DNA of 64,000 bases, taken from the NCBI GenBank assembly GCA_947170495.1, contig CAMVUB010000004.1, positions 1 to 64,000 on the forward strand, in the 5' to 3' direction. Below, piece by piece: positions 3,500 through 62,246 of the stretch. Source of the stretch: an uncultured Prevotellaceae bacterium. Lineage in GTDB: Bacteria > Bacteroidota > Bacteroidia > Bacteroidales > Bacteroidaceae. The notes below the pieces were generated by a model. The model was not told the DNA's origin. It saw only the letters and a list, made by a program, of their open reading frames with translations, and did not search any database. The position numbers and the translations under genes are program-made. Position 1 is the stretch's first letter. Each line of letters opens with the position of its first letter.

Positions 3500-4042
3500 T
3501 TAGTGTTTCAGAATGATATCCATGCCCATTCGGAGGGCAGCCTCATTGGCGGGAATGAGGTGGTGATGGCGCTCGGGGAGGGTCTTGTGCAGGCCCTTGA
3601 TGACATTCTCCAGCGTCACAATGGGTCGCACTTTGAGCAGACCGCCCAGGACAATCATGTTGAAGCTCTTGGGGTTACCACTCTCGGCAGCAGCGTCCAT
3701 CGCACTAATCTCATAGATGTTGATATCTGTGCGTTTAGGGGGTATCGTGATGCCGTAGCCATCGTAGATGAGAGTGCCACCGGGCTTGATCTTTGACTCG
3801 AACTTCTCCAACGAGGGCTGGTTCAGGATGATGGCCGTGTCGTAGGTGCTGATGATGGGCGATGAGATACGTTCGTCGCTGACGATGACCGTCACGTTGG
3901 CCGTGCCGCCACGCTGTTCGGGACCGTAGGCAGGCATCCAAGACACTTCCTTGCCTTCCATCAGCGCGCTGTATGCGAGAATCTTACCCATCGACAGGAC
4001 GCCCTGTCCGCCGAAACCGGCTATGATGATTTCTTCTGTCAT
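3500..4042 (-). CDS. 2-oxoacid:ferredoxin oxidoreductase gamma subunit
   Basis: MTEEIIIAGFGGQGVLSMGKILAYSALMEGKEVSWMPAYGPEQRGGTANV is typical of KorC/VorC. Confidence 0.9.
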   Translation of the reverse strand: MTEEIIIAGFGGQGVLSMGKILAYSALMEGKEVSWMPAYGPEQRGGTANVTVIVSDERISSPIISTYDTAIILNQPSLEKFESKIKPGGTLIYDGYGITIPPKRTDINIYEISAMDAAAESGNPKSFNMIVLGGLLKVRPIVTLENVIKGLHKTLPERHHHLIPANEAALRMGMDIILKH

Positions 4043-4083
4043 AAACTTTAAACTTTAAACCATAAACTTTAAACCTTAAACCA
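4042..4083. repeat. heptamer micro-repeat TAAACTT/TAAACCA x6
   Basis: TAAACTT|TAAACTT|TAAACCA|TAAACTT|TAAACCT|TAAACCA, exact 7-bp period. Confidence 0.9.
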
Positions 4084-7934: not shown

Positions 7935-7936
7935 TT

Positions 7937-7971
7937 AGTTGATAGTTGAAAGTTGATAGTTGAGAGTTGAA
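7937..7971. repeat. heptamer micro-repeat AGTTGAN x5
   Basis: AGTTGAT|AGTTGAA|AGTTGAT|AGTTGAG|AGTTGAA, exact 7-bp period. Confidence 0.92.
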
Positions 7972-19567: not shown

Positions 19568-19612
19568 TTGAACTCTTGAACCTTTGAACTCTTTAACCGC
19601 TAACCGTTAAAC
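19568..19612. repeat. 7/8-mer micro-repeat TTGAACYC/TTTAACCG
   Basis: TTGAACT|CTTGAACC|TTTGAACT|CTTTAACC|GCTAACC|GTTAAAC. Confidence 0.7.
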
Positions 19613-20086
19613 GTACCCCTCAATCGGCAAGTGCTCCACATCGATGCCGGCACGCTGGAGCAGGTCGATGCCGTCGTGCAGGCGGTAGTCACGGGCATAC
19701 ACTACGCGGCGGATGCCGGATTGGATGATGAGCTTCGAGCACTCGATGCAGGGCGAGTCCGTCACATAGAGCGTGGCGCCCTCAGAGTTGTTGCCTGAGC
19801 GGGCGATTTTCGTGATGGCATTGGCCTCGGCGTGAAGGACATAGGGCTTGGTGACGCCGTTCTCCTCACACACGTTCTCGAAGCCCGAGGGTGTGCCGTT
19901 GTAGCCGTCGCTGATGATCATCTTATCCTTGACAATCAGCGCGCCCACTTGTCTGCGGACGCAGTAGCTGTTCTCGCTCCATATGCGAGCCATGCGTAGA
20001 TAGCGCTTATCTAAGATAGACCCACCCCTGGCCCCTCCCGTTAGGGAGGAAGAAGGCTGGTGTGTTGTATGGTCTTTATTATCCAT
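19607..20086 (-). CDS. dCMP deaminase (ComEB-like) with repeat-encoded N-terminal segment
   Basis: ARIWSENSYCVRRQVGALIVKDKMIISDGYNGTPSGFENVCE..HAEANAITK..CIECSKLIIQSG. Confidence 0.9.
   Translation of the reverse strand: MDNKDHTTHQPSSSLTGGARGGSILDKRYLRMARIWSENSYCVRRQVGALIVKDKMIISDGYNGTPSGFENVCEENGVTKPYVLHAEANAITKIARSGNNSEGATLYVTDSPCIECSKLIIQSGIRRVVYARDYRLHDGIDLLQRAGIDVEHLPIEGYV
20018..20060. repeat. family 1 palindromic element copy c, in comEB
   Basis: agacccacccctggcccctcccgttagggaggaagaaggctgg. Confidence 0.88.
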
Positions 20087-20127
20087 GTTGGTTAAATTGT
20101 TTTCTATGAATAAATGAATAAAGGTGT

Positions 20128-22302
20128 TTATCTTCCACTCCGCAGGCACTCCCCTCCATTACGGGAGGGGTCGGGGGTGGGTCTTTTTATTCCATTCCGC
20201 TTGAGGAGCGCATCAATGGTCGGCTCCTGGCCGCGGAAGCGTTTGTAAAGGGTCATGGGGTGCTCGGTGCCGCCTCGCGAGAGGATGCAGTCGCGGAAGC
20301 GCTGGGCGGTCTCGCGGTTGAAGATGCCGTCGTGCTTGAAGACCGAGAAGGCGTCGGCATCTAGCACCTCGGCCCATTTGTAGCTGTAGTAGCCAGCTGC
20401 ATAGCCGCCCGACATGATATGGCCGAACTGCACCGTCATGCAGGTGCCGGGTACCTCGTCGAACAGCAGTGCACGCTTCCACGCCTCGCGCTCAAAGGCT
20501 TGGACGTCAGCCGTGAAGGGCTCCGTGAGCGTGTAGTAAGCCATATCCAGCAGCCCGAAGCTCACCTGTCGTATGCAGGCGTAGGCCACGTTGAAGTTGC
20601 GGCTGTCGATGATGCGTTGTATCAAGTCGGCGGGCATCGGCTCGCCTGTCTCGTAGTGGGCGGCGAAGGTGTTCAGGAAGTCGGGCTCGACGGCGAAGTT
20701 CTCCATCAGCTGCGAGGGCAGCTCCACGAAGTCCCAATAGACGCTGGTGCCCGAGAGGCTGGCGAAGCGCGTGTTGGCGAAGATGCCGTGCAGCGCGTGC
20801 CCGAACTCGTGCAGGAAGGTCTCTACCTCGCCCAGCGTCAGTAGGGCGGGCTTCGTCTCGGTGGGCTTGGTGAAGTTCATCACCAGCGAGACATGCGGGC
20901 GGCTGTTCTTCCACAGCGACGGGTCTTTCGGGTCGGGGCAGTTGTCTTCGGGCCCAATCCATTGCTCTTTGAAGCTGGTCATCCAGGCGCCGCTCTGCTT
21001 GCCCTTGCGGGGGAAGAAGTCGGTGTAGAGGACAGCCAAGAAACTGCCGTCCTTGTCCAGAACCTCGTAGGCCTGCACGTCGGGGTGATAGACGGGGATG
21101 TCCTTGTTCTCGCGGAAGGTGATGCCGTAGAGGCGCGTGGCGAGGCCGAAGACACCCTCCTTGACGCGCGAGAGCTGCAGATAGGGGCGTGTCATCTCGG
21201 CATCGATATTGAAGCGCTCCATCTTCAGCTTGTGGCCGTAGTAGGAGAAATCCCAGGGCTTCAGCTCGAAGTCTGCGCCTTCCAGCTTGCGCGCAATGGC
21301 TTCTATCTCAGCCACTTCCTTGCGTGCGGGCTCCATGTAGGCTTCCAGGAGCTGGTCCAGCAGGCGATAGACATTGTCGGCCGTCTCGGCCATCCGCTCC
21401 TTGAGGACATAGTCGGCAAAGGTCTTGTAGCCCAGCAGCTGTGCGTGCTCGCGGCGCAGGTTGACAAGCTGTCGCACGATGGCCTCGTTGCTGAGCTCGC
21501 CGTCGCCCACGCAAAGCGTGTTCTTAGCCATATACATCTGGCGGCGCAGCTCGCGGTTGTCTGCGTAGGTCAGGAAGGGACCGTACGACGGGGCGTGGAG
21601 CGTGAAGAGCCAGCCCTCCTTGCCATTCTCCTTGGCGGCCAGGGCGGCGGCATCACGTGCGGAGTCAGGGAGTCCGGCGAGGTCGGCCTCGTCGGTGATA
21701 TGGAGCTGATAGGCGTTGGTGGCCTTCAGGTTGTTCTGTGAGAACTGCAGGGTCAGGAGTGCCATCTGCTGGTTCATCTCGCGCAGACGCGCCTGGCCAG
21801 CCTCGTCCAATGCGGCGCCGGCACGGATGAAGCCCTCGTAGGACTTCTCCAGCAGCATCTGCTCCTCAGGGGTGAGGGGGCGGGCTGGTTCAGGGTTTAT
21901 GGTTAAGGGTTCAGGGTTTATGGTTGAGGGTTTATGGTATTGTTCATAAACAGCCTGAATCCGCTGGAAGTAGCGCTTGTTGAAGAGGATGTTGTTGGCG
22001 TGCTCGGTGAGGATAGGGGAGAGCTTCTGCGCCAGCGCGTCCATCTCGTCGTTGGTCTCGGCCGAGAGCAGGTTGAAGAACACTTTCGTGACGCGCTCCA
22101 GCATGTCGTCGGGCGTGGTCACGGCCACCGTATTGTCGAAGGTCGGCGGCTCTGGATTGTCGGTGATGCGCTGGATGAACGCATCGTCCTGCCGGATGCC
22201 TTCGAGGATGGCAGGCTCATAGTCCTCCAACTGTATTCTGTCGAATGGTGCCGTATTGTGCGGTGTGCCGTAGTTCTTGTTAAAGAGTGGATTATCTCTC
22301 AT
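20128..22302 (-). CDS. M3-family oligopeptidase / peptidyl-dipeptidase
   Basis: HEFGHALHGIFANTRFASLSGTSVYWDFVELPSQLMENF zinc motif. Confidence 0.93.
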   Translation of the reverse strand: MRDNPLFNKNYGTPHNTAPFDRIQLEDYEPAILEGIRQDDAFIQRITDNPEPPTFDNTVAVTTPDDMLERVTKVFFNLLSAETNDEMDALAQKLSPILTEHANNILFNKRYFQRIQAVYEQYHKPSTINPEPLTINPEPARPLTPEEQMLLEKSYEGFIRAGAALDEAGQARLREMNQQMALLTLQFSQNNLKATNAYQLHITDEADLAGLPDSARDAAALAAKENGKEGWLFTLHAPSYGPFLTYADNRELRRQMYMAKNTLCVGDGELSNEAIVRQLVNLRREHAQLLGYKTFADYVLKERMAETADNVYRLLDQLLEAYMEPARKEVAEIEAIARKLEGADFELKPWDFSYYGHKLKMERFNIDAEMTRPYLQLSRVKEGVFGLATRLYGITFRENKDIPVYHPDVQAYEVLDKDGSFLAVLYTDFFPRKGKQSGAWMTSFKEQWIGPEDNCPDPKDPSLWKNSRPHVSLVMNFTKPTETKPALLTLGEVETFLHEFGHALHGIFANTRFASLSGTSVYWDFVELPSQLMENFAVEPDFLNTFAAHYETGEPMPADLIQRIIDSRNFNVAYACIRQVSFGLLDMAYYTLTEPFTADVQAFEREAWKRALLFDEVPGTCMTVQFGHIMSGGYAAGYYSYKWAEVLDADAFSVFKHDGIFNRETAQRFRDCILSRGGTEHPMTLYKRFRGQEPTIDALLKRNGIKRPTPDPSRNGGECLRSGR
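20148..20183. repeat. family 1 palindromic element copy d (inverted relative to c), in the M3 peptidase 3' end
   Basis: actcccctccattacgggaggggtcgggggtgggtct. Confidence 0.88.
21889..21937. repeat. heptamer micro-repeat x7 inside M3 peptidase coding sequence
   Basis: TTCAGGG|TTTATGG|TTAAGGG|TTCAGGG|TTTATGG|TTGAGGG|TTTATGG. Confidence 0.95.
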
Positions 22303-22305
22303 TGA

Positions 22306-22983
22306 TTAAAGTGTTTCTTTGATGATGTTCTCGAAGGCGGGGACGTGAATCATGCGACGATTCATTTGCAGCAGCCCCTTCTTTTCCAGTCTGTGTAGCG
22401 CCCTGGAGATATAGCGCGAATCCTCGCCCAGATAGGCACCCAGGGTTGACAGGGAGATGCGGAATAGCTTGTAGCCCGCTGGACGTTGCACATGGTTTCG
22501 CATGAAATGTACGATGCGCCCCTCCAGCGTCTGCGGGGCTGGCATCCATTGCAGCTGTCGCTGTCGGGCGACGAGGGCGGAGAGCGTGTTGAGGACGTTG
22601 ATGCGGAAGACCTCGAAATAGCTCGTCAGCGCGGCCAGCGTTCGCTTGTCCACCCGCATGAGCCGCACGGTGGTGTCGGCATAGGCGGTGTAGGGATAGA
22701 CGCGTGTGCTGCCGTAGAGCACCTCCAAACCCAGTAGGGTGGGTACAGGCAGCACCTCCTCCACATTCCACATGCGGTCGGCGGCCGTGGTGGTGCAGCG
22801 GACTGTGCCGCCCAGGATGAAGATGACCTCATTGCACAAGTCATCCTGCTGCACAAACTGGGTCTCGGGCATCAGCGTCTCGAACCTGAGACGTGTCGAT
22901 TCCAGGATGCGCGTCAGGTCGTCGGGGCTCAGTCCTTGGAACAGGGGCAGCGACAGCACGGTATCAAACATTGTTTGCGCCAT
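22306..22983 (-). CDS. Crp/Fnr-family transcriptional regulator
   Basis: cNMP-binding-like N-terminus and HTH RISLSTLGAYLGEDSRYISRALHRLEKKGLLQ. Confidence 0.85.
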   Translation of the reverse strand: MAQTMFDTVLSLPLFQGLSPDDLTRILESTRLRFETLMPETQFVQQDDLCNEVIFILGGTVRCTTTAADRMWNVEEVLPVPTLLGLEVLYGSTRVYPYTAYADTTVRLMRVDKRTLAALTSYFEVFRINVLNTLSALVARQRQLQWMPAPQTLEGRIVHFMRNHVQRPAGYKLFRISLSTLGAYLGEDSRYISRALHRLEKKGLLQMNRRMIHVPAFENIIKETL

Positions 22984-23003
22984 CAGACTCGCGAATGAGT
23001 GTG

Positions 23004-23011
23004 CAAAAGTA
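23004..23011 (-). promoter_or_regulatory. Bacteroidetes -7 element TACTTTTG
   Basis: caaaagta on + strand upstream of crp/fnr. Confidence 0.5.
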
Positions 23012-23095
23012 CAACGAATACACTTCAAATGCAAAAAAATATGCACCTTTTGACCTAATTTTACTGCTTTCTGCGGCTGAATGGCAAAAACTCCG

Positions 23096-23103
23096 TACCT
23101 TTG
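23096..23103 (+). promoter_or_regulatory. Bacteroidetes -7 element TACCTTTG
   Basis: TAnnTTTG upstream of the CotH gene. Confidence 0.55.
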
Positions 23104-23133
23104 TGGCGTAAAATGTAGCAAAACAATAGAACT

Positions 23134-25692
23134 ATGAAGCATATCTACTTACTGATAACTTGCCTGTTGGGAAGCCTCTGCGCCCCCATGAACGTGTATG
23201 CCGGAGAGGAAGAGGAGCGGGAGGACTCCATCTTCGTGGAGAAGAAGGACGGCTCGCTCGACATCTTCCCTGCCTCGGCAGTAGCCGAGGAAACCATCGA
23301 CGAGGCGTACCTCAAGGTGGTAACCATCGGCGGCTCGGAGTTCATCTATCCCCTCGCGGAACTCAACTCCTACGACCACCAGATGCAGTTGAACCGCCCG
23401 ACCATCACTTCGTTCAAGTTCAATAACAAATTCAACCACCAGCTGTTCTCCGACGTGCTGTGTGACATCACCCCCGACAACCAGATCAACAGCACTTCGC
23501 AGGTGGCTGCCTTCACGCATTGGCTGACGCCCTCCTTCAAGCGCTCCGATGCTCGTGCCGAGGTCTATCTCAACGATGAGGAGCGCCTCTACAGCAAGGT
23601 GAGCCGTGTGAAGATGGGCGCCCAGGAGCGCGTGACCATCGCCTTTCCCGGTGTCAGGATCCTCAAGAACACGCTCGTGAGCCCTGCCGAGGAAGGCAAG
23701 GAGGAATGGAAACTGACGGAGATTCCCCTGACGGCCGACAAGCTCAGCACCAACGCACCCTCCAACTATGAGGATCAGATCTTGGATATGGCTGTTGATG
23801 GTGACTACAACACTTATTTTCATTCTACTTGGGGTTCAGGTGAATATGAGAAGCTGCCGCTGGAGGAGTTCCCATACATTGATGTGACTCTTCCCGAGCC
23901 CGTGTATAACATCTCCTATGCTGTGACCAATCGTGCGGACACCGATGGCCGTTCTCCACTGGTGCTCAGCTTGTGGACCAGCTATGATGGAGGTGAAACA
24001 TGGCAGGAGGTTCAGCGTAATCTGGAGGGAGATCTGAATACGAGTGCCGGTGCTACCAATACCTCGCCCGTCGTGGAGCTGGAGCAACCCTGCGCGTTGT
24101 TCCGTATCGCCATGCTGAAGGCCGGCTACAAAAACTACTTCTGCGTGGCCGAGTTGAAGATGTTCTCATGTGAGCTCGAGAAGACCGAAGGCACCCCCGC
24201 CGTCTATGCCGACACGATGGTGCCCTACGGCACGGAATACCAACTCAACCTCGACTGGGCACAGGCCACTGGAGTGCCCAAGGTGTATATCAACATCGAC
24301 GGTGGCGGCCTGGTGAGCAGCAAGTCATACTACCTCGACGCCACCATCCGCCTCGACGGCGCCGGCATGTATCCTGACTTCGCCGAGACCCCCGTGCAGA
24401 TTCGTGGTCGCGGTAACAGCAGCTGGAGCGACACGCCCGACTCCAAGAACCCCTATCGCCTGAAGTTTGAGGAGAAGCAGAAGCCCTTCGGCCTCAAGAA
24501 AGGCAAGAGCTGGGTGCTCCTCGCCAACCGTCAGTCGGGCTCCATGACCAGCAACGCCATCGGCATGTATGCCGCAGGACTCATCGGCGCTGACGGCGCC
24601 AACCACATCGTCCCCGTGGAGCTCTACATGAACGGCCAGTACTGGGGCAGCTACAACTTCACCGAGAAGACAGGCTTCTCCAACAACAGCATCGACCTCG
24701 ACGACGAGACCAAGGCCTGCTTCCTGGAACTCGACACGTACAGCGACGAGACCCGCTACTACTCCTACGCCACCATCAATGGGCAGAGCGTGGGCATCCC
24801 CGTGAAAATCAAGGAGCCCGAAGTCTTCAATCCCACCCAGGTGAACCCCGAGGAAAGCGAGGACATCAAGACCCTCATCAAGTCATATAGCGACATCACG
24901 ACACGCTTCCAAGAGTTCGTGTGGATGGTGGAGGACCAGCAGGACATCTCCTCCGTCGTAGATATCGAGTCGCTGGCACGCTTCCTCGTCGCCAACGAGC
25001 TGATCATCAACTACGAGCTGATGCACCCCAAGAGCACCTTCCTCTACCACGAGGACGTCTATGACGAAGATTCCAAGTTCAAGTGGGGACCCGTCTGGGA
25101 CCTCGACTGGAGCTACGGCTACGAATATGGCAACCGCACCTACTTCCAGAGCGGTGCCACCGATAACTATTTCACCCGCTCGTCCATGGAGGCTTCCGCC
25201 TTCTGGAAACGCCTGCGCCAATGCGGCGAGCCCCTCGACCGCGCCATGTACAAGTACTGGTCGCGCTTCATTCGCCTCTATCTCAACGAGCTCATCGACT
25301 ACTGCGACGACTACTACAACTTCGCCCAGCCCTCGCTCGAGAATAACAACAACCACGTCTATTACAGCGACTGGGACTACGCCAACTACGCCACTGCCAC
25401 CACCAATGCCAAGCGTTGGCTCCAGCAGCGCGCCACAGCCATCTTCAATCAGCTGACGCCCTACGAGCTCACCGACGAAGAGATTATGGGCATTCCCGAG
25501 ACACCCGAGGATCAGCCCGGCGACGATCCCTATTTCACCGACGGCATCGCCGCACCCTCCACAGCCACCGTCTTTGAGGTCTATGACATGCGCGGCCTCC
25601 GCCTCAAGCAGCGCGCCACCTACAACACCTGGCGCAACGGCCTCACCCCCGGCATCTACATCGTCAACGGCCGCAAAGTCCTCGTGAAATAA
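23134..25692 (+). CDS. CotH-kinase family secreted protein with T9SS-like tail
   Basis: VQIRGRGNSSWSDTPDSKNPYRLKFEEKQKPFGLKKGKSWVLLANRQSG..; C-terminus GLTPGIYIVNGRKVLVK. Confidence 0.88.
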   Translation: MKHIYLLITCLLGSLCAPMNVYAGEEEEREDSIFVEKKDGSLDIFPASAVAEETIDEAYLKVVTIGGSEFIYPLAELNSYDHQMQLNRPTITSFKFNNKFNHQLFSDVLCDITPDNQINSTSQVAAFTHWLTPSFKRSDARAEVYLNDEERLYSKVSRVKMGAQERVTIAFPGVRILKNTLVSPAEEGKEEWKLTEIPLTADKLSTNAPSNYEDQILDMAVDGDYNTYFHSTWGSGEYEKLPLEEFPYIDVTLPEPVYNISYAVTNRADTDGRSPLVLSLWTSYDGGETWQEVQRNLEGDLNTSAGATNTSPVVELEQPCALFRIAMLKAGYKNYFCVAELKMFSCELEKTEGTPAVYADTMVPYGTEYQLNLDWAQATGVPKVYINIDGGGLVSSKSYYLDATIRLDGAGMYPDFAETPVQIRGRGNSSWSDTPDSKNPYRLKFEEKQKPFGLKKGKSWVLLANRQSGSMTSNAIGMYAAGLIGADGANHIVPVELYMNGQYWGSYNFTEKTGFSNNSIDLDDETKACFLELDTYSDETRYYSYATINGQSVGIPVKIKEPEVFNPTQVNPEESEDIKTLIKSYSDITTRFQEFVWMVEDQQDISSVVDIESLARFLVANELIINYELMHPKSTFLYHEDVYDEDSKFKWGPVWDLDWSYGYEYGNRTYFQSGATDNYFTRSSMEASAFWKRLRQCGEPLDRAMYKYWSRFIRLYLNELIDYCDDYYNFAQPSLENNNNHVYYSDWDYANYATATTNAKRWLQQRATAIFNQLTPYELTDEEIMGIPETPEDQPGDDPYFTDGIAAPSTATVFEVYDMRGLRLKQRATYNTWRNGLTPGIYIVNGRKVLVK

Positions 25693-25722
25693 TATACGTC
25701 TCAGCAAAGACTAAAGCACACG

Positions 25723-26008
25723 AAACCCTTAGGGCTTCAGCGCAAAACCCTTAAGGCTTTTTCTCAAAACCCTTAGGACTATCGCCCGAAACCCTTAGGG
25801 GTTATGACCCGAAGACCATGGTCTTCTCATCGTTCCATCGTGATGGAACGACGAACGCAGCGTGGTCTTCCTACTGGATCACCATGGTGGGACACTCAAC
25901 GCACCGCGGTCTTCAATCGTGTCCCACGCGTGGAACTCGCAATAAGGACGCGTCCCTCGGGCCGTTACGATGCGTCGTGAAGGCCGATAGGACGCGTCCT
26001 TCATTTCA
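25723..26008. repeat. 22-bp-phased tandem array of about 13 non-identical palindromes
   Basis: Units begin at 25723, 25745, 25767, 25789, 25811 ... 25987. Dyads include CCCTTAGGG, CCTTAAGG, GAAGACCATGGTCTTC, TTCCATCGTGATGGAA, CACCATGGTG, ACCGCGGT, CCACGCGTGG, GGACGCGTCC (x2), each centred at unit position 8/9. Confidence 0.92.
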
Positions 26009-26029
26009 CCCGTTCATCTCGAGAAAAAG

Positions 26030-26146
26030 TTTTGCGGAAAACCCTATGAGCCCTACGCAAACCGCCTCCCTCCGTCATCATCCTGCAACTCGCCGACGCC
26101 GACTCACCTCCCCACGTGCGTAACCCTCATAAAGTTTTCCGCAAAA
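26030..26146. repeat. 117-bp inverted-repeat element with 30-bp arms
   Basis: TTTTGCGGAAAACCCTATGAGcccTACGCA ... TGCGTAaccCTCATAAAGTTTTCCGCAAAA (25/30 arm matches). Confidence 0.88.
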
Positions 26147-26166
26147 ATAATTCTGTCTCTACGCTT

Positions 26167-26580
26167 TTACAGGATTCCTTCGCGTTGCAGTATTTCCAGC
26201 ATCTCCGATGGGGTAACAACAATGGTGTTCTTTGGGAAATGCCTTATGTTACCTGTCACAAGGTAAGCATCATCCTTCGACATGGCAACCTCATAGAACA
26301 CCACATCCTTAGGATCTGGAAACACTTCTGAACTAGGCACACGATAAGAAGCCATTCCTGACATTTGAATCTTGTTAAGAATAGAGGCAATGGCTTTAGA
26401 TGGGAATTCAAACTTCGGTCTGCTTAGCACATCCTTGTATTCCGCAATAATTTCATGATTGTACAAAGGCCGCAACCCCTTTTCAGAAATAGCACTTACA
26501 ACTTGTACTGTTGCAGAATCCGAGTGGCGCGACAACAAAGCCGCTACTAAAACATTGGTGTCAATAACAGCGTATATCAT
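26167..26580 (-). CDS. PIN-domain putative toxin (COG1569-like)
   Basis: MIYAVIDTNVLVAALLSRHSDSATVQVVSAI..LYNHEIIAEYKDVLSRPKF..KDDAYLVTGNIRHFP. Confidence 0.88.
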   Translation of the reverse strand: MIYAVIDTNVLVAALLSRHSDSATVQVVSAISEKGLRPLYNHEIIAEYKDVLSRPKFEFPSKAIASILNKIQMSGMASYRVPSSEVFPDPKDVVFYEVAMSKDDAYLVTGNIRHFPKNTIVVTPSEMLEILQREGIL

Positions 26581-26891
26581 ACTTTTGCCTTTTCTCTTGC
26601 AGCCTTTTCTTCGCGTGCTAATCTAATCTCTTCGTTAATCTCGTCGAGTGTTAAGTCCGGCAGCAAACCACTCTCTGCCATCCTTCTAAATTCACGGAAA
26701 GCCTCAAGATCGCCCATGGATTCCCATTCGGGGTCTGCTTTGATTTCAAAAGGAATTTTCCGATACGTCACTACCGCCTTTGCAAACACATTCATTGCTG
26801 TGTTTACGCTCATGCCCATACGTGCACAGAGCGCATCAAAGCTCTGTTTTAGTTGTGAGTCCATTCTCACCGTCATAGATACCTGTGCCAT
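26577..26891 (-). CDS. RelB/DinJ-family antitoxin
   Basis: MAQVSMTVRMDSQLKQSFDALCARMGMSVNTAMNVFAKAVV; 4-nt overlap with toxin gene. Confidence 0.88.
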   Translation of the reverse strand: MAQVSMTVRMDSQLKQSFDALCARMGMSVNTAMNVFAKAVVTYRKIPFEIKADPEWESMGDLEAFREFRRMAESGLLPDLTLDEINEEIRLAREEKAAREKAKV

Positions 26892-27035
26892 AGTTGTAAT
26901 GTTTTAACGATGCAAAGGAAAGCATTTTATTTCATTCTGCCATCATTTTGACGTAAAATTATATCATCCCAATTATTTTTATTTACTTTTTACTACCAAA
27001 TGAGCCTTTCCCCGTACTCTTCCATCTTCCATCGT

Positions 27036-27128
27036 TCACTCCCAACCCTCATCAACATTGTTTTCCATATAGCGGCCCATGCCGTTGTCGTCCATGTCAT
27101 CCTCTGATGCAGGATCGAAGTGGCGCAT
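27036..27128 (-). CDS. 30-aa acidic small ORF, possible gene remnant
   Basis: MRHFDPASEDDMDDNGMGRYMENNVDEGWE*; read from reverse strand, below ORF-track cutoff. Confidence 0.35.
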   Translation of the reverse strand: MRHFDPASEDDMDDNGMGRYMENNVDEGWE

Positions 27129-27191
27129 GCCAATATGATGAATCCTGGCTTCATTGTTCAAGAAAAGAAACAATCCCCACAATTTTTTTCA

Positions 27192-27233
27192 CATCAGCCA
27201 TCACACATCATACATCAGCCATCACACATCTTC
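27192..27233. repeat. heptamer micro-repeat CATCANN x6
   Basis: CATCAGC|CATCACA|CATCATA|CATCAGC|CATCACA|CATCTTC. Confidence 0.93.
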
Positions 27234-27345
27234 CTCTCACTCCGTAGAACTTCAGGAGTTCCCCAACCTTCTTGTCGACGCCCAGCTCTTTCCGCAGTTC
27301 GGCCTTGTAGTCGCCGCAGACGCTCACAGCCATCATAAAAAACAT
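27208..27345 (-). CDS. 45-aa small ORF/gene remnant
   Basis: MFFMMAVSVCGDYKAELRKELGVDKKVGELLKFYGVRGRCVMADV*; stop lies in the heptamer repeat. Confidence 0.35.
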   Translation of the reverse strand: MFFMMAVSVCGDYKAELRKELGVDKKVGELLKFYGVRGRCVMADV

Positions 27346-27435
27346 CAGAAAATATCGTTTTATACCTTTGGTTAATTGTCTTTTGTTTTATTCCCTATCT
27401 CATTAACGATTGACATATTTGGGTTATACAAAATG

Positions 27436-28203
27436 TCATATAATTGTAGGTTGAAGTCGAAAAGCATTCTCATCTACCTGCATTTGGTAGAGTTTTATTT
27501 GTGGATTTAGCTCCCTGCGAACAGATTCGACTAACATTTCTTTCTCAGTTGAATCTGTATTTATACCAAAATATATAGACTCAAAACATTCTCCTTTCAA
27601 AGGCATGTAATGATGTATCTCGCGCCAATCCCATGACTCTTTTGGTATTTTTGTTTGTTCTGGAGTAAGAGCTGCATACATTTGAGATGGTCTTGGTATC
27701 ACCAATCTGACCTCCTGCTCATATTCCCAATCCTTGGCTTTTGTTTGCCATTGATAAGTGAATAAATCTTGTGTGGAACTATATTTATTGGGACGTTCTA
27801 TTATATCCTTGTATTGAATATCTATAACAAGAGGTTTCATATATAACATACCAAACATAGGAGGAACAGACTGCATTACTTTGTCCAAATCAAGACCTAT
27901 ACAAACACCTTTATGATTATAGCAATAATGACTCCACATGAGTATAGAATCATTTACTCTCGATAAACTACAAAGCCACGTTTCGTTGCGAACGTTGAGA
28001 GCGTCATTTTCCTCTTTCTCTTGCCACCATTCTTCAGGAATCCATCCCCGTGTACACTTTGGCACATTCGAATAGTCAAGTAATTTAGGATGACAATCGA
28101 AAGGGTCATTAAGTTGTGACGCATTAGTAAATTGGAGGTTACTATTTCCAATCATGCGTCTTGCGCCTTTTATGTCTAAATATTTATAGAGTATTCGAGA
28201 CAT
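27436..28203 (-). CDS. DUF2971-like protein adjacent to type I R-M
   Basis: YKYLDIKGARRMIGNSNLQFTNASQLNDPFDCHPKLLDY..SILMWSHYCYNHKGVCIGLDL. Confidence 0.8.
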   Translation of the reverse strand: MSRILYKYLDIKGARRMIGNSNLQFTNASQLNDPFDCHPKLLDYSNVPKCTRGWIPEEWWQEKEENDALNVRNETWLCSLSRVNDSILMWSHYCYNHKGVCIGLDLDKVMQSVPPMFGMLYMKPLVIDIQYKDIIERPNKYSSTQDLFTYQWQTKAKDWEYEQEVRLVIPRPSQMYAALTPEQTKIPKESWDWREIHHYMPLKGECFESIYFGINTDSTEKEMLVESVRRELNPQIKLYQMQVDENAFRLQPTII

Positions 28204-29691
28204 TTATTTCAGTTTATCTATCTCGCCAAGGAGTTGCTCCAGCTTAGCCACGATGCGGTGCTGCTCGGCGAGAGGGGGAAGGGGAATAAGATAATTTCTA
28301 AGCTTTGTAAGACTTGTTCTTACTCTTGTTATTCCTTGCACATTGCCATATACTTGGCTTTTGAAAATCGACGAATTAATAGAATAATAAAGATACTTCT
28401 TGAATAGATAGTTTGAAAAATCAAACCGTACGGCGTCCGAAGACAACACATATTTATTATCATCAGAAGGACAAATTATAGCCCTTCCTGCAGGCATCAT
28501 TTTGGCAATAATAATATCACCAGCAAACGCTTCGCTTCTTTGGATGGTCTCAAGATGTTTATAGGTTGTATATTTTGTATTAGCATCTTTCCATCCTAAT
28601 TCTCCAATATTGCTAAGTTGTATTATTCTAACCTCTTTAGATGTCGTGTAATGATCCTTTTTCAGATTACTGCCAAAAGGGCCATCAGCTGAATCCAAAG
28701 AAATATCCCCCAATCTCACCCACTCCCAACTATCTGGTATCTCGAAGGGGATTTCGTCTTCGTTGATGGGTGTTTCGATGAGGTCTTTCTTTTTGAGTTT
28801 GCCGGCTTTTAAGAGTTGGGCTTTCTCTTTGCGGATTTTTTCGAGGAGGACGCTGGCGGGTTCGTCGTTGGGGGCTTGCGCCACCAAGCGACCTGAGATG
28901 GCTTCTTGCAGGATGCTCTTCTTTAGTCGTTCAGGCAGTTCTGTATTCAGCTTGTCGAGGGCTTCCTGCGCCTTCCCGTACTCCTCCACTTTCGGTAGCA
29001 GTTCCTTATACTTTGAAAGAATCCTCTTTTGTTCCTCTTGGGGAGGGATTGGTATTATCAAATTACTTAATGATTGGCCATTAACGTTTGGTTGTCCCGT
29101 TCCTGAAGATGCATCAATAAGTTGTTTCCAATAACAAGGAGTCATCATAAACAGCTTAAGAAACTCTTCATTTATTTCTTCAAGTGGAATCACTCTTATT
29201 AAATAAGAGGCAAAAACTGCTACATCTTCCAATTGCCTTACGATATAAGTTTTGCCTATAGTTCCACCTGTTCGAGCAATTAAGATATCTCTGTTTTTAA
29301 GTTGATATGTCTTTAAATCTTTGTCTTTAGTTGTACAATACGGCACCGATTTCCAATCGACTGTATCATCTTGAATATCTGTAATTCTTAGCAATCTTGC
29401 ATTCCCTGTTGGAGCTGCTGATGCAGTAAAGCCATAATGTATAGCAGAGGATAAAGACGATAGCCTCACCCACTCCCAACTCTCAGGAATCTCGAACGGC
29501 TTTTCGTCCTCAGAGATGGGTTTTACTTCGAGGTCTTTCTTCTTGAGCTTTCCCTCTTTCACCAGTCTTTCCTTCTCCTTCCGTATGCGTTGGAGCAGCA
29601 CGGAAGCAGGCTCATCGTTTGGGTCTTGCGGCACCAAGCGCCCCTCGATGGCTTCTTGCAGTATGGCGTTCTTCAGTTGTTGTGCGTTCAT
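28204..29691 (-). CDS. hsdS: type I restriction-modification specificity subunit (two TRDs)
   Basis: Duplicated LKKxILQEAIxGRLVxQxPNDEPASVLLxxIRKEK..PFEIPxSWEWVRL. Confidence 0.93.
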   Translation of the reverse strand: MNAQQLKNAILQEAIEGRLVPQDPNDEPASVLLQRIRKEKERLVKEGKLKKKDLEVKPISEDEKPFEIPESWEWVRLSSLSSAIHYGFTASAAPTGNARLLRITDIQDDTVDWKSVPYCTTKDKDLKTYQLKNRDILIARTGGTIGKTYIVRQLEDVAVFASYLIRVIPLEEINEEFLKLFMMTPCYWKQLIDASSGTGQPNVNGQSLSNLIIPIPPQEEQKRILSKYKELLPKVEEYGKAQEALDKLNTELPERLKKSILQEAISGRLVAQAPNDEPASVLLEKIRKEKAQLLKAGKLKKKDLIETPINEDEIPFEIPDSWEWVRLGDISLDSADGPFGSNLKKDHYTTSKEVRIIQLSNIGELGWKDANTKYTTYKHLETIQRSEAFAGDIIIAKMMPAGRAIICPSDDNKYVLSSDAVRFDFSNYLFKKYLYYSINSSIFKSQVYGNVQGITRVRTSLTKLRNYLIPLPPLAEQHRIVAKLEQLLGEIDKLK

Positions 29692-29693
29692 GC

Positions 29694-30692
29694 TTAGTCC
29701 TCCTGTTCTGGATTGATTTTAAAATCTAACAATCCCTTTACAGCCTTATCGAAGTCACTCTCAAGCATACGCATCTCGCGCTCGCGATAGATTTCAAACT
29801 CACGCTCAGCTTTCTCGATGGCTTCTTGATGCGACACAGTACCACTACCTTCGAGGATGTTTTTACGCAAGCGCAATATCTGGTCGTCGAGTGCTGCTAT
29901 CCAATCGGCCATCGTCATAGGATTCTGCTCTAAAGCTTGGAACTCAGCATAATCCAAGAATTGCGAGGTCAATAGGTTCAATCGTTGTAACTCCAACTCC
30001 GTCAGGTAGTTCTTGGCTATCTTTACATCGTCGCGAGTAACATAGTTGCCCTTAAAGTTGGTCATACCAACAAAGGGCTTCTCGTTGTCCACACGCTCAT
30101 ATATCAACTCTGCAGCAGTATGCTCATGGACAGCATAGTGCATCTTGTTCTGTACGGTAGCAAAGAACAACTTCGTCATTGGCGAACGCGGGTCATAGTC
30201 CGTTGAAGTGGCATAGATATCCGTCACCTGCTGATAGAAATTACGTTCACTGCTTCGGATATCGCGAATGCGTTGCAGCAATTCCTTGAAGTAGCGATTG
30301 CCGCCTTGCTTCAATCGTTCATCGTCCATCGTGAAGCCCTTCTGTATATACTCATGCAATAAGCGAGTGGCCCAACGGCGGAAACGTACTGCTATAGGCG
30401 ATTGAACACGATATCCTAAGGCAATAATCACGTCAAGGTTATAGTGTAATATCTGATAGTTTTTCCCGTCTGCAGCAGTTGTTCGGAATTTCCGAACAAC
30501 TGAATCCTGATCCAGTTCTTTATCTGCAAAAATGTTTGTTAGATGCTCACTGATGTTTGATTTGCTCGACTGGTAAATCTCTACCAGTTGTGCCTGCGTC
30601 AGCCACACATCCTCATCAGCAAACAGAGTGTTTACACTCAGTTTTCCCTCTTCATCCTTATAGAGAATCAGTTTATTTTCTTTGTCTGCCAT
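29694..30692 (-). CDS. RhuM-family (virulence RhuM) protein
   Basis: DEEGKLSVNTLFADEDVWLTQAQLVEIYQSSKSNISEHLTNIFADKELD..YNLDVIIALGYRVQSPIAVRFRRWATRLLHEYIQKGF. Confidence 0.92.
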   Translation of the reverse strand: MADKENKLILYKDEEGKLSVNTLFADEDVWLTQAQLVEIYQSSKSNISEHLTNIFADKELDQDSVVRKFRTTAADGKNYQILHYNLDVIIALGYRVQSPIAVRFRRWATRLLHEYIQKGFTMDDERLKQGGNRYFKELLQRIRDIRSSERNFYQQVTDIYATSTDYDPRSPMTKLFFATVQNKMHYAVHEHTAAELIYERVDNEKPFVGMTNFKGNYVTRDDVKIAKNYLTELELQRLNLLTSQFLDYAEFQALEQNPMTMADWIAALDDQILRLRKNILEGSGTVSHQEAIEKAEREFEIYREREMRMLESDFDKAVKGLLDFKINPEQED

Positions 30693-30697
30693 ACGTC

Positions 30698-32212
30698 TTA
30701 ATCAATTGTTATGCCCAACATTTTCTGTATCTCACTGAGCGTCTGGTCGATCTTGGCATCGAGGGCTGCGCGTTGGGCGTGGTACTGTTGCAGGAGTTCT
30801 TCGGGGCGCAACACTTCTTCCTCCTCCTTGGGGAACTTGCATTGGTCGAAGTTGTAGCCAAGGTCGATGAGTTGCTGTGCTGTGAAGCAGCGGGCTTTCT
30901 CGTCGCCCGTCTCAGCATCGATAATCTCCGTGCGCTGGTGCCACCAGTCGCGGATGGGCTGTGCGTGCTCGCTGAGCATGGGCTTGGTCTTGGAGAAGTG
31001 CTTGTAGCCCTCGGGCATGTCGAGGCGGTAGAACCAGGTGTTCTTTGTCGCGAAGCCTTCCTGTGCCCCTTCTGCACGCTCGTTGTTGAAGAAGAGGATG
31101 TTGGTGGCGATGCTGGTGTAGGGCGAGAAGATACTGCCTGGCAGACGGATGATGGTGTGGAGGTTGAACTGGCGCAGCAGGCGCTCCTTGATGGCCAGCT
31201 TGGCGTTGTCGGTGCCGAAGAGAAAGCCGTCGGGGAGGATGACAGCGGCGCGCCCGTGCTTAGCCAGACGATAGGTGATGACCACCATGAAGAGGTCGGC
31301 CGTCTCGCTGGAGGCGAGGTCGCTGGGGAAGTGGCGCTTGATGTCGTTCTTCTCGTTGCCGCCATAAGGGGGATTCATCAGGATGACATCGAAGCAGTCG
31401 TCGTCGGTGTAGTTGAGCACGTCCTTGGTGAACGAGTTGTCATGATAGACGTGTGGCGAGTCGATGTCGTGGAGGAGCATGTTGGTGACGCAGAGCATAT
31501 AGGGGAATTGTTTCTTCTCGATGCCGTAGATGCTCTGTGCGTAGGCCTCGCGGTCTTCGGCGGTTGTAACCTTCTTGTCGAGGGCCTTCAGCCACGATGT
31601 GAGGAAGCCGCCCGTGCCGCAGGCGAAGTCGGCCACACGCTCGCCAATCTGCGGCTGGATGATCTCAGCCATGAAATCGGTGAGGGCACGAGGGGTGTAG
31701 AACTCACCTGCCGTGCCTGCGGACTGCATCTCTTTGAGGATGCTCTCGTAGATCTCGCCGAAGGCGTGGCTCTCCTCGTAGCTACCGAGGTCGAGGCCGT
31801 CGATGACGTTGATGACTTGGCGCAGTAGAACACCATCTTTCATATATTGGTTGGCGTCCTGGAACGTGGATCGCACGATGGCGCTGCGCATGGGTGTCGA
31901 AGGTGTCACCTCCAGCGTCTTCAGGGTTGGGAAGAGAGTGTCGTTGACGAAGTGAAGCAGCTTGTCGGCTGTCAGCGCCTCGCCGGTGCCGTCGTCCTTG
32001 GCCCAGTTGCGCCAGCGGCAGTGCTCAGGGATGAAGGACTGGTAGTTGTCCTCGTTGAACTCCCAGTCGTTCTCTTTCTCGTCATATACTTTCAGGAAAA
32101 GCATCCACGCAATCTGCTCGATGCGCTGGGCATCGCCGTTGATGCCGGCATCATTGCGCATGATGTTTCGGATATTCTTAACGAAATTGGTTAATGCCAT
32201 GATATTGGACAA
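30698..32212 (-). CDS. hsdM: type I restriction-modification methyltransferase subunit
   Basis: EFYTPRALTDFMAEIIQPQIGERVADFACGTGGFL..VILMNPPYGG. Confidence 0.95.
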   Translation of the reverse strand: MSNIMALTNFVKNIRNIMRNDAGINGDAQRIEQIAWMLFLKVYDEKENDWEFNEDNYQSFIPEHCRWRNWAKDDGTGEALTADKLLHFVNDTLFPTLKTLEVTPSTPMRSAIVRSTFQDANQYMKDGVLLRQVINVIDGLDLGSYEESHAFGEIYESILKEMQSAGTAGEFYTPRALTDFMAEIIQPQIGERVADFACGTGGFLTSWLKALDKKVTTAEDREAYAQSIYGIEKKQFPYMLCVTNMLLHDIDSPHVYHDNSFTKDVLNYTDDDCFDVILMNPPYGGNEKNDIKRHFPSDLASSETADLFMVVITYRLAKHGRAAVILPDGFLFGTDNAKLAIKERLLRQFNLHTIIRLPGSIFSPYTSIATNILFFNNERAEGAQEGFATKNTWFYRLDMPEGYKHFSKTKPMLSEHAQPIRDWWHQRTEIIDAETGDEKARCFTAQQLIDLGYNFDQCKFPKEEEEVLRPEELLQQYHAQRAALDAKIDQTLSEIQKMLGITID

Positions 32213-60738: not shown

Positions 60739-60766
60739 TTGACAATTGACAATTGACAATGGACAA
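60739..60766. repeat. heptamer micro-repeat TTGACAA x4
   Basis: TTGACAA|TTGACAA|TTGACAA|TGGACAA. Confidence 0.92.
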
Positions 60767-60820
60767 TTATTTTGTTTTTCACCTGCATTTTCTTGTGTTT
60801 TGACCTCTTTTCCCCCCTTT

Positions 60821-60841
60821 CATTCTTCACTTTTCACTTTT
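60821..60841. repeat. heptamer micro-repeat CACTTTT x3
   Basis: CATTCTT|CACTTTT|CACTTTT. Confidence 0.75.
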
Positions 60842-60847
60842 TTGCAC

Positions 60848-60855
60848 TATCTTTG
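60848..60855 (+). promoter_or_regulatory. Bacteroidetes -7 element TATCTTTG
   Basis: TAnnTTTG 25 bp upstream of the 60880 ATG. Confidence 0.55.
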
Positions 60856-60879
60856 TCCTCGGAATTTAAGACTACGATT

Positions 60880-62172
60880 ATGCGTCGCTATTTATCATTT
60901 ATCATTTACCATTTATTATTTATCATTTCAAGTCTCGCCCCTGCCGTCGCACAGACGTGGCAATTCGACTTCGTCAAGAACAAAGCTAACAAGGGTTCCG
61001 GGGCCATCCTCGTGCAGCCCACCCAACGCTATTCTGCTGATACGGACTATGGCTTCGACTTCATCGCATCGCCAGAGCGCCTGGACCGCCAGACACCTTT
61101 CTATTTCAGCGTGCGCGTGCCCGACGGCAACTACCGCGTGCGTGTCACGCTGGGCAGTCGCAAGCAGGCTGCTGTCACCACCGTGCGTGCTGAGAGCCGT
61201 CGCCTCTTTGTGGAGAACCTGGCCACCAAGAAGGGCGAGCTGCGCGACGTGGAGTTCATCGTGCACAAGCACTCCCCGCAAATCGACGCACAGCGCTCGA
61301 TGCGCCTGAAGAAGCGCGAGCTCACGAAACTCAACTTCGACGACCGCCTCACCATAGAGATCAACGGCGACGCTCCCGCCTGCGCTGCCATCCACATCGA
61401 GCGCGACGACAGCGTGCCTACGGTCTTCCTCTGCGGCAACAGCACCGTCGTGGATCAGGACTCTGAGCCGTGGGCCTCATGGGGCCAGATGATCACGCGT
61501 TGGTTCGGTCCCGAGGTGGCCATCGCCAACTTCGCTGAGAGCGGCGAGACGGCCAGCACCTTCATCGCCGCCAACCGCCTGGCCAAGGCGCTGTCGATGA
61601 TGAAGGCGGGCGACTACCTCATCGCCGAATTCGGGCACAACGACCAGAAGCAGCGCGGCCCGGGCATGGGTGCCTACTACAACTTTGCCACGGCGCTGAA
61701 GACATTTATAGATGAAACGCGCGCGCGTGAAGCCACGCCCATCTTCGTGACACCTACGCAGCGACGCTCCTTCAAGGACGGCCGCATTCAAGAGACCCAC
61801 GCTGACTACCCCGAGGCGATGGCTTGGGTGGCAGCGCGCGAGAACGTGCCCCTCATAGACCTCCACGCAATGACGCGCACCTTCTACGAGGCGATGGGCG
61901 AGGAGCCGAGCAAGCACGCCTTCGTGCACTATCCCGCAGGCAGCTTCCCCGGTCAGACCACCGACTTCAAGGACAACACTCATTTTAATCCCTACGGTGC
62001 CTATGAGCTGGCCAAATGCGTCATTGAAGGCATGAAAGCCATCCAGCTTCCTATCATTCAATACCTTCGCCCGGACTACAAACCCTTCGACCCGGCTCAT
62101 CCCGACTCCTTCGAGAACTTCCATTGGAACGACTCTCCCTTCTTCGAGGCAGAAAAACCAGACGGAAATTAG
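60880..62172 (+). CDS. secreted SGNH/GDSL esterase (rhamnogalacturonan acetylesterase-like)
   Basis: VPTVFLCGNSTVVDQDSEPWASWGQMITRWF..DYLIAEFGHNDQ..FVTPTQRRSF; start at MRRYLSFIIYHLL. Confidence 0.9.
   Translation: MRRYLSFIIYHLLFIISSLAPAVAQTWQFDFVKNKANKGSGAILVQPTQRYSADTDYGFDFIASPERLDRQTPFYFSVRVPDGNYRVRVTLGSRKQAAVTTVRAESRRLFVENLATKKGELRDVEFIVHKHSPQIDAQRSMRLKKRELTKLNFDDRLTIEINGDAPACAAIHIERDDSVPTVFLCGNSTVVDQDSEPWASWGQMITRWFGPEVAIANFAESGETASTFIAANRLAKALSMMKAGDYLIAEFGHNDQKQRGPGMGAYYNFATALKTFIDETRAREATPIFVTPTQRRSFKDGRIQETHADYPEAMAWVAARENVPLIDLHAMTRTFYEAMGEEPSKHAFVHYPAGSFPGQTTDFKDNTHFNPYGAYELAKCVIEGMKAIQLPIIQYLRPDYKPFDPAHPDSFENFHWNDSPFFEAEKPDGN
60890..60931. repeat. heptamer micro-repeat ATTTATC x6, forming the signal-peptide core
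   Basis: ATTTATC|ATTTATC|ATTTACC|ATTTATT|ATTTATC|ATTTCAA. Confidence 0.93.
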
Positions 62173-62187
62173 GCGGCGGAGCCGCAG

Positions 62188-62246
62188 TTTAAGGTTTAAG
62201 GTTTAAAGTTTAAGGTTGGTTAAGGTTATCGTTAAGGTTAAGGTTT
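62188..62246. repeat. heptamer/hexamer micro-repeat TTTAAGG / GTTAAG directly abutting a start codon
   Basis: TTTAAGG|TTTAAGG|TTTAAAG|TTTAAGG ... GTTAAG|GTTATC|GTTAAG|GTTAAG. Confidence 0.85.

Follow-up and report, generated by a model that had tools for sequence, protein, structure and literature searches.

REP/BIME elements are dispersed, intergenic and species-specific palindromes in which pairing is kept as the sequence changes, and about one third of RAYT genes adjoin BIMEs (PMC2817692). The RAYT proteins of the Bacteroidetes subclass 2.6 carry an NH[LIV]H motif, average 179 aa, and are flanked by 'atypical secondary structures' (PMC2817692; PMC6006769; PMC8266576). BrickBuilt, found in Porphyromonas gingivalis and P. 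gulae, has a leader and a tail that end in IS-like inverted repeats; the word 'palindrome' is absent from its description (PMC4596501).

The locus considered here lies in the window, the whole stretch of 64,000 nucleotides that was analysed, from a Prevotellaceae bacterium, and consists of short palindromes repeated every 22 bp. It is probably best read, at a probability of roughly one half, as belonging to a dispersed family of REP/BIME-like extragenic hairpin arrays, this copy comprising about 13 units and a hairpin tail; RAYT-like transposases fused to a DprA-like domain would be the likely enzymes. Arrays that keep pitch and symmetry but not their letters are easily missed, because repeat finders seek similar sequence. 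In the open-licence literature no prior description of such arrays in Bacteroidales was found.

The array in the window and its neighbours

The array is composed of 13 units of 22 bp (25723-26008), each a 16-bp palindrome followed by a 6-bp spacer (Table 1). The sequence, the coordinates and the 22-bp register given in an earlier sequence-only reading are correct. The dyads of the 13 units (25723-26002) share one phase, and 73 of 104 pairs match (5, 7, 4, 6, 8, 7, 2, 5, 4, 7, 6, 6 and 6 of the 8 pairs in successive units). For 2,000 dinucleotide shuffles of the array, the same-phase sum averaged 25.9 (sd 4.5, maximum 41), and no shuffle exceeded 45 even at its best phase. When periods of 15-39 were examined across the whole window, the best sums elsewhere were 44-53. 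The observation that nearly every unit has a dyad is borne out by these sums, except that units 3, 7 and 9 are poor palindromes. Many of the palindromes do differ from one another; their number is nearer ten than the 'about 13' first proposed, because the first four units are near-copies of a single word. Those same first units also occur elsewhere in the host genome (C55, C65, C36, C3, C1 and C15). Units 7 and 9 are hybrids whose left and right halves come from different words, and much of the recurrence of GGTCTTC at 44-bp steps (25820, 25864, 25908) can be traced to them. An open frame of 101 aa (25818-26123, plus strand) reads through the array; it looks spurious and would mislead annotation.

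Table 1. Positions of the array, its neighbours and the candidate enzyme genes (window coordinates unless a locus is named)
Feature	Position	Strand	Basis or remark
CotH-family gene upstream of the array	23134..25692	+	PF08757, E 1.1e-23; context only
Units 1-4, AAACCCTT.AAGGGTTT-type words, 5' part of the family-A element	25723..25810	+	sequence; dyad count
Units 5-6, GAAGACCA.TGGTCTTC (perfect 16-bp palindrome) and TTCCATCG.TGATGGAA	25811..25854	+	words recur genome-wide
Units 7-9, hybrid ACGCAGCG.TGGTCTTC, palindrome GATCACCA.TGGTGGGA, hybrid ACGCACCG.CGGTCTTC; an X.Y' - Z.Z' - X.Y' block	25855..25920	+	
Units 10-13, GTCCCACG.CGTGGAAC, TAAGGACG.CGTCCCTC, TTACGATG.CGTCGTGA, ATAGGACG.CGTCCTTC, with the last spacer	25921..26008	+	
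Tail module, long imperfect inverted repeat (arms ~26022-26059 / ~26117-26154)	26020..26160	+	
Putative PIN-type toxin and antitoxin gene pair adjoining the tail	26167..26891	-	label by eye
RAYT-like HuH transposase with DprA-like second half	L166:1180-2331	+	possibly undescribed
RAYT-like HuH transposase with DprA-like second half	L167:703-1992	-	possibly undescribed

The array starts 30 bp beyond the stop codon of the CotH-family gene. The tail module on its other side follows several family-A arrays and is also present without an array. The inverted repeat of the tail, GTTTTGC.GAAAACCCTATGAGCCCTACGC, is found in the window (26020-26160) and again at L039, L121 and L074, and changes in one arm are matched in the other, for example AACACTACGAACATTACGC with GCGTAGTGTTCGTAGTGTTTTC. 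The tail together with the putative toxin-antitoxin pair (window 26007-27193; L097) is 96% identical in the related genome G082, where both the adjoining array and the adjoining gene are different ones; the block may have moved as a cassette, or the arrays may have recombined. Just past the gene pair (27436-32212), HsdS-, RhuM/Fic- and HsdM-like ORFs, named by eye, likely form a type I restriction-modification cluster. The window also contains several short runs with a period of 7 bp (and 21 bp), TAAACTT and GGTTCAG among them (4040-4083, 7936-7970, 21887-21938, 60739-60928, 62187-62217), and it starts with a 15-bp tandem repeat, TGACACCCTTCGCTG (1-96).

Dispersal in the host genome and in related species

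Consecutive dyads at a fixed step were sought, independent of sequence, in 1.18 Mb, about half of the host genome. At a step of 22 bp, 32 loci were detected with a 5-unit threshold, and 39, 35 and 32 loci across three thresholds. Of the other steps from 14 to 43, only 33 gave any, and like 44 it is a harmonic of these arrays. In shuffled copies of the same 1.18 Mb there were 0 arrays against the 39, 35 and 32 in the real sequence, so that the phased palindromes first noticed in the window withstand this comparison. Searches of plasmid and phage records gave no match.

Once spurious ORFs are set aside the host arrays are intergenic. All four gene orientations are represented, and several arrays begin 10-50 bp past a stop codon. 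The adjoining genes are mixed (among 65 looked at were housekeeping genes, three VapE-like genes and two Y1_Tnp), which rules out a single gene type beside the arrays. The proximity to the CotH-family gene, to which the sequence-only reading had drawn attention, is incidental.

Host arrays draw their words from a small set, among them TTACGACG.CGTCGTAA, GAAGACCG.CGGTCTTC, TTCTCACG.CGTGAGAA and GTTCCATG.CATGGAAC. The spacer letters have a weak bias to nGGCCn; no conserved GTAG, GGAG or CGTC foot and no fixed tetranucleotide is visible in them. The window array belongs to sub-family A, the copies of which keep the order of units and are cut at varying points at both ends. Variable truncation with a shared unit order is expected of dispersed copies. 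A further type of array, built on CTATAG palindromes (ACCCTCTA.TAGAGGGT / GACACTAT.AGAGGGTC) with AAGACACTACTACTCCCTCGCCT in front and also near a 22-bp pitch, has been observed at L075:11800-11903 and L074:18990-19057, downstream of several tails.

Arrays with the same pitch are found in other species. In bulk sequence of nine genus-mates, five had arrays, and among steps of 19-25 these occurred at 22 bp only. The 22-bp pitch is also seen in G011, G017, G028 and G089. Two genus-mates beyond the nine, G017 and G089, have arrays at the same threshold, and G083 and G093 at a slightly lower one, each with its own words. In G030, the word TAAGCTCG.CGAGCTTA is phased at 22 in 18-19 of 20 fetched loci (some of which overlap); for TTACGTGC.GCACGTAA in G023 the figure is 13-14 of 20 (a few overlap). 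Other periods account for 0-2 of these loci, the harmonic 33 apart, and neither word is part of the host usage. A covariance model of four hairpins at 22-bp pitch, trained on diverse arrays, was run on 251 genomes of the family and matched 28 of them in 12 of 30 genera, G228, G322, G190 and G266 being among those outside the genus; these are model matches and hence putative arrays. In several species of a single genus, each genome has dozens of array sites, and model matches occur in other genera of the family. Relatives do possess other 22-bp-phased arrays, and the proposal that phase and symmetry are conserved rather than sequence holds across species, with the same pitch and different words.

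Hybrid units make up about 7% of the total (34 of ~505), and the two in the window read ACGCA(C/G)CG.(C/T)GGTCTTC. At L067, and in part at L075, the palindromes of the equivalent neighbourhood are whole and follow one another as Y.Y' - Z.Z' - X.X', with spacers of matching type. Were two palindrome centres to undergo exchange, this order would become the X.Y' - Z.Z' - X.Y' of the window. Same-orientation hybrid pairs outnumber reciprocal ones 7 to 0, a count that is suggestive only because duplication of one hybrid gives the same result. Compensatory change among recent family-A copies shows a modest excess (15 cells versus 10.9 in shuffles; 24 of 500), and strong compensatory evolution in these copies was rejected on that ground. 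Their palindromes are mainly inherited, decaying words and not recently re-paired ones.

An unlikely alternative is that the arrays are mobile repeats that resemble minisatellites, as BrickBuilt does, and owe their spread to an ordinary, non-RAYT transposase or to homologous recombination. Slippage and unequal exchange would keep the period, template switching between arms at replication would keep the palindromes near-perfect, and the RAYT genes would be bystanders. Whole-unit growth and shrinkage, as in C36 versus its counterpart in G126, fits such a process. So do the frequent hybrids with their 7:0 count, which centre-to-centre inversion or duplication would give, the MITE-like long inverted repeats of the tail, and the many RAYT relatives without arrays described below. 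Slippage, however, leaves an exact 22 bp for different words across species unexplained, and RAYT genes lie near arrays more often than expected. The ends of the arrays are variable, with no terminal inverted repeats found at both ends; in three comparisons (L111/L055, L106/L082, L112/L081) the sequences diverge and neither a clean empty site nor a target duplication was seen.

Folding, strandedness and candidate enzymes

The array strand folds as single-stranded DNA far better than its shuffles do (z -6.7), and the corresponding RNA fold is strong too (z -6.4). The latter value, and the arrays that begin shortly after stop codons, would suit a transcribed chain of RNA hairpins serving as an mRNA stabiliser, a terminator or a source of small RNA. 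A selected RNA hairpin should favour G-U pairs in the strand that is transcribed; no such preference is expected of duplex sites or of elements able to fold on either strand of the DNA. In the arrays G-T and A-C mismatches between arms are balanced (53:60), which argues against a role as RNA. An Rfam search with the array matched no family, terminators are not in excess (the single terminator-like site equals the shuffle expectation), and the arrays occur in every gene orientation. The chain of transcript mini-hairpins offered in the sequence-only reading is accordingly disfavoured, and we consider an RNA function very improbable.

The lack of strand bias among mismatches is equally compatible with sites in duplex DNA. 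A period of 22 bp is close to two helical turns, and dyads set two turns apart on one face of the helix could be read by a dimeric protein that binds DNA or organises the nucleoid (or by gyrase, as with the BIMEs of E. coli). The symmetry of the units, which drops just past 16 bp, and the arrays just after stop codons can be accommodated by such binding. Against it, the words vary both within and between species, which a protein that reads sequence would not be expected to tolerate. The central base pair looks constrained (0.77 versus 0.44), but within a word class it covaries weakly (77/117 versus 66). With so small an excess, the central pair was dropped as proof of duplex recognition. Because word class explains most of the central symmetry, the centre could be a hairpin loop. 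Dyads lying on one DNA face are conceivable, although we hold arrays for duplex binding to be improbable.

When the host genome was searched for Y1 transposases, two weak matches emerged, each within 0.4 kb of an array. Both are RAYT-like genes whose second half is DprA-like. Genes related to them are present in 93 of the 138 genomes of the genus, in many of which those with the DprA-like half are multi-copy (up to 15 matches), and the proteins are ~350-480 aa long. The two host proteins score below the cut-offs of curated families, with 35 and 43 bits for the equivalog NF047646 (REP-associated tyrosine transposase; cut-off 80) and 20-21 for Pfam Y1_Tnp (cut-off 23). A DHxH motif is present in 35 of 38 RAYT-like ORFs and a Y..NP-type motif in 37 of 38; in an alignment of 32 relatives the D, H, H and Y, N, P columns are invariant, and a profile from that alignment reaches the ISDra2 TnpA. 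An AlphaFold model (pLDDT 83) is matched by Foldseek at probability 1.0 to 2xma, 2xm3 and 4er8. Among the fold matches are the REP-bound RAYT of E. coli (4er8), ISDra2 TnpA and DprA, some entries of the last being bound to ssDNA. As judged from the predicted model, the proteins have the Y1 HuH fold. By our reading of the sequence layout, the DprA match would correspond to the C-terminal half. No description of a RAYT-DprA fusion was found in a search of the open-licence literature.

The association with arrays is statistical. Of the 28 RAYT-like loci in five genomes that bear arrays, 11 lie no more than 650 bp from one, compared with 54 of 647 (8%) other ORFs 300 aa or longer (odds ratio 7.1 and p = 1.7e-5; the 28 loci were hand-tallied, with a small uncertainty). 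In G030 and G023 the array beside the RAYT-like gene belongs to a family that is dispersed in the same genome. Elsewhere the pattern differs. At 29 loci of the closest relatives of protein P1, in the same and other genera, no comparable array was seen apart from one weak exception; any three-unit signal was found at 2 of the 29, and one of these is doubtful, being AT-rich. Arrays are also lacking at most P2-like loci beyond the five array-bearing genomes. The 89%-identical relative of P1 in G082 adjoins an array (C44 of that genome) with different, non-dispersed words. A general linkage of RAYT genes and arrays across the genus and family was not found. The link is not obligatory, and the enzyme can do without arrays, because the P1 relatives and most outside P2-like loci lack them. 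That the RAYT-DprA enzymes are the best candidate for acting on the arrays, with the strongest link in G030 and G023, is a supported hypothesis.

If the window array is a copy of a REP/BIME-like family, each palindrome would be able to form a small hairpin where the DNA is single-stranded, as in the template of the lagging strand. The arrays would spread and reshuffle within a genome as non-autonomous units, most likely by means of the RAYT-like HuH transposases fused to the DprA-like domain. The geometry, hairpin and 22-nt pitch, would be kept as each species amplified its own words. We infer both the cutting or moving of hairpins by an enzyme and their formation in vivo, as well as any benefit to the host. 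A stronger version, in which geometry is all that is inherited, can be put forward tentatively. Blocks of exactly 22 bp, self-complementary and with letters rewritten in each species, would be maintained by HuH transposases that have a DprA-like domain of their own, and exchange between palindrome centres might reshuffle them. Should the RAYT-DprA proteins act on the arrays, the two would provide a tractable enzyme and hairpin-array pair for studying how REP-like arrays arise, an open question for BIMEs.

Comparison with known systems

The arrays differ from CRISPR, as had been concluded from the sequence. Regularity and a short period are shared with CRISPR, but the repeats are not identical, the spacers are 6 bp, and no cas gene was noticed at 19607-32212 of the window. 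The enzymes have the HuH-Y1 catalytic fold of the IS200/IS605 proteins (ISDra2, IS608) that act on ssDNA hairpins; unlike those elements, the arrays carry no transposase and the left and right IS ends are not recognised. MITEs have terminal inverted repeats and target-site duplications; the tail here has inverted arms, but the copies are truncated variably, and no clean empty site was seen among three loci compared. BrickBuilt, a MITE of P. gingivalis, is likewise an intergenic element of the Bacteroidales with a short-period tandem core and a tail, a variable number of units and partly truncated copies (PMC4596501). It repeats one 23-nt sequence, in contrast to the period of 22 and different words seen here.

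REP/BIME elements with their RAYT proteins are likewise close (PMC2817692; PMC6006769; PMC8266576). In both, dispersed intergenic palindromes form arrays and are specific to a species, palindromy outlasts sequence, some arrays mix words, and some RAYT genes lie beside an array family of their own genome. In G030 and G023 the array, the RAYT-like gene and the dispersed family make up the usual REPtron arrangement. Many dispersed, short intergenic palindromes, as required of REP/BIME, are present, and the array unit of 16-22 bp is at the lower edge of the 20-40 bp range (PMC3733652). The initial statement that the array matches no REP/BIME pattern was too strong, since dispersal, intergenic site and species-specific palindromes are shared, though the foot tetranucleotide is not. 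The differences are a 22-bp pitch fixed across species, symmetric units where those of REP/BIME are oriented head/tail units, arrays without the GTAG/CGTC foot, and enzymes with DHxH, ~350-480 aa and a DprA-like half in place of the features of RAYT subclass 2.6. Because the foot tetranucleotide is absent and the units are symmetric and strictly 22-bp-phased, the arrays are not filed as members of REP/BIME; in their behaviour within the genome they are REP/BIME-like.
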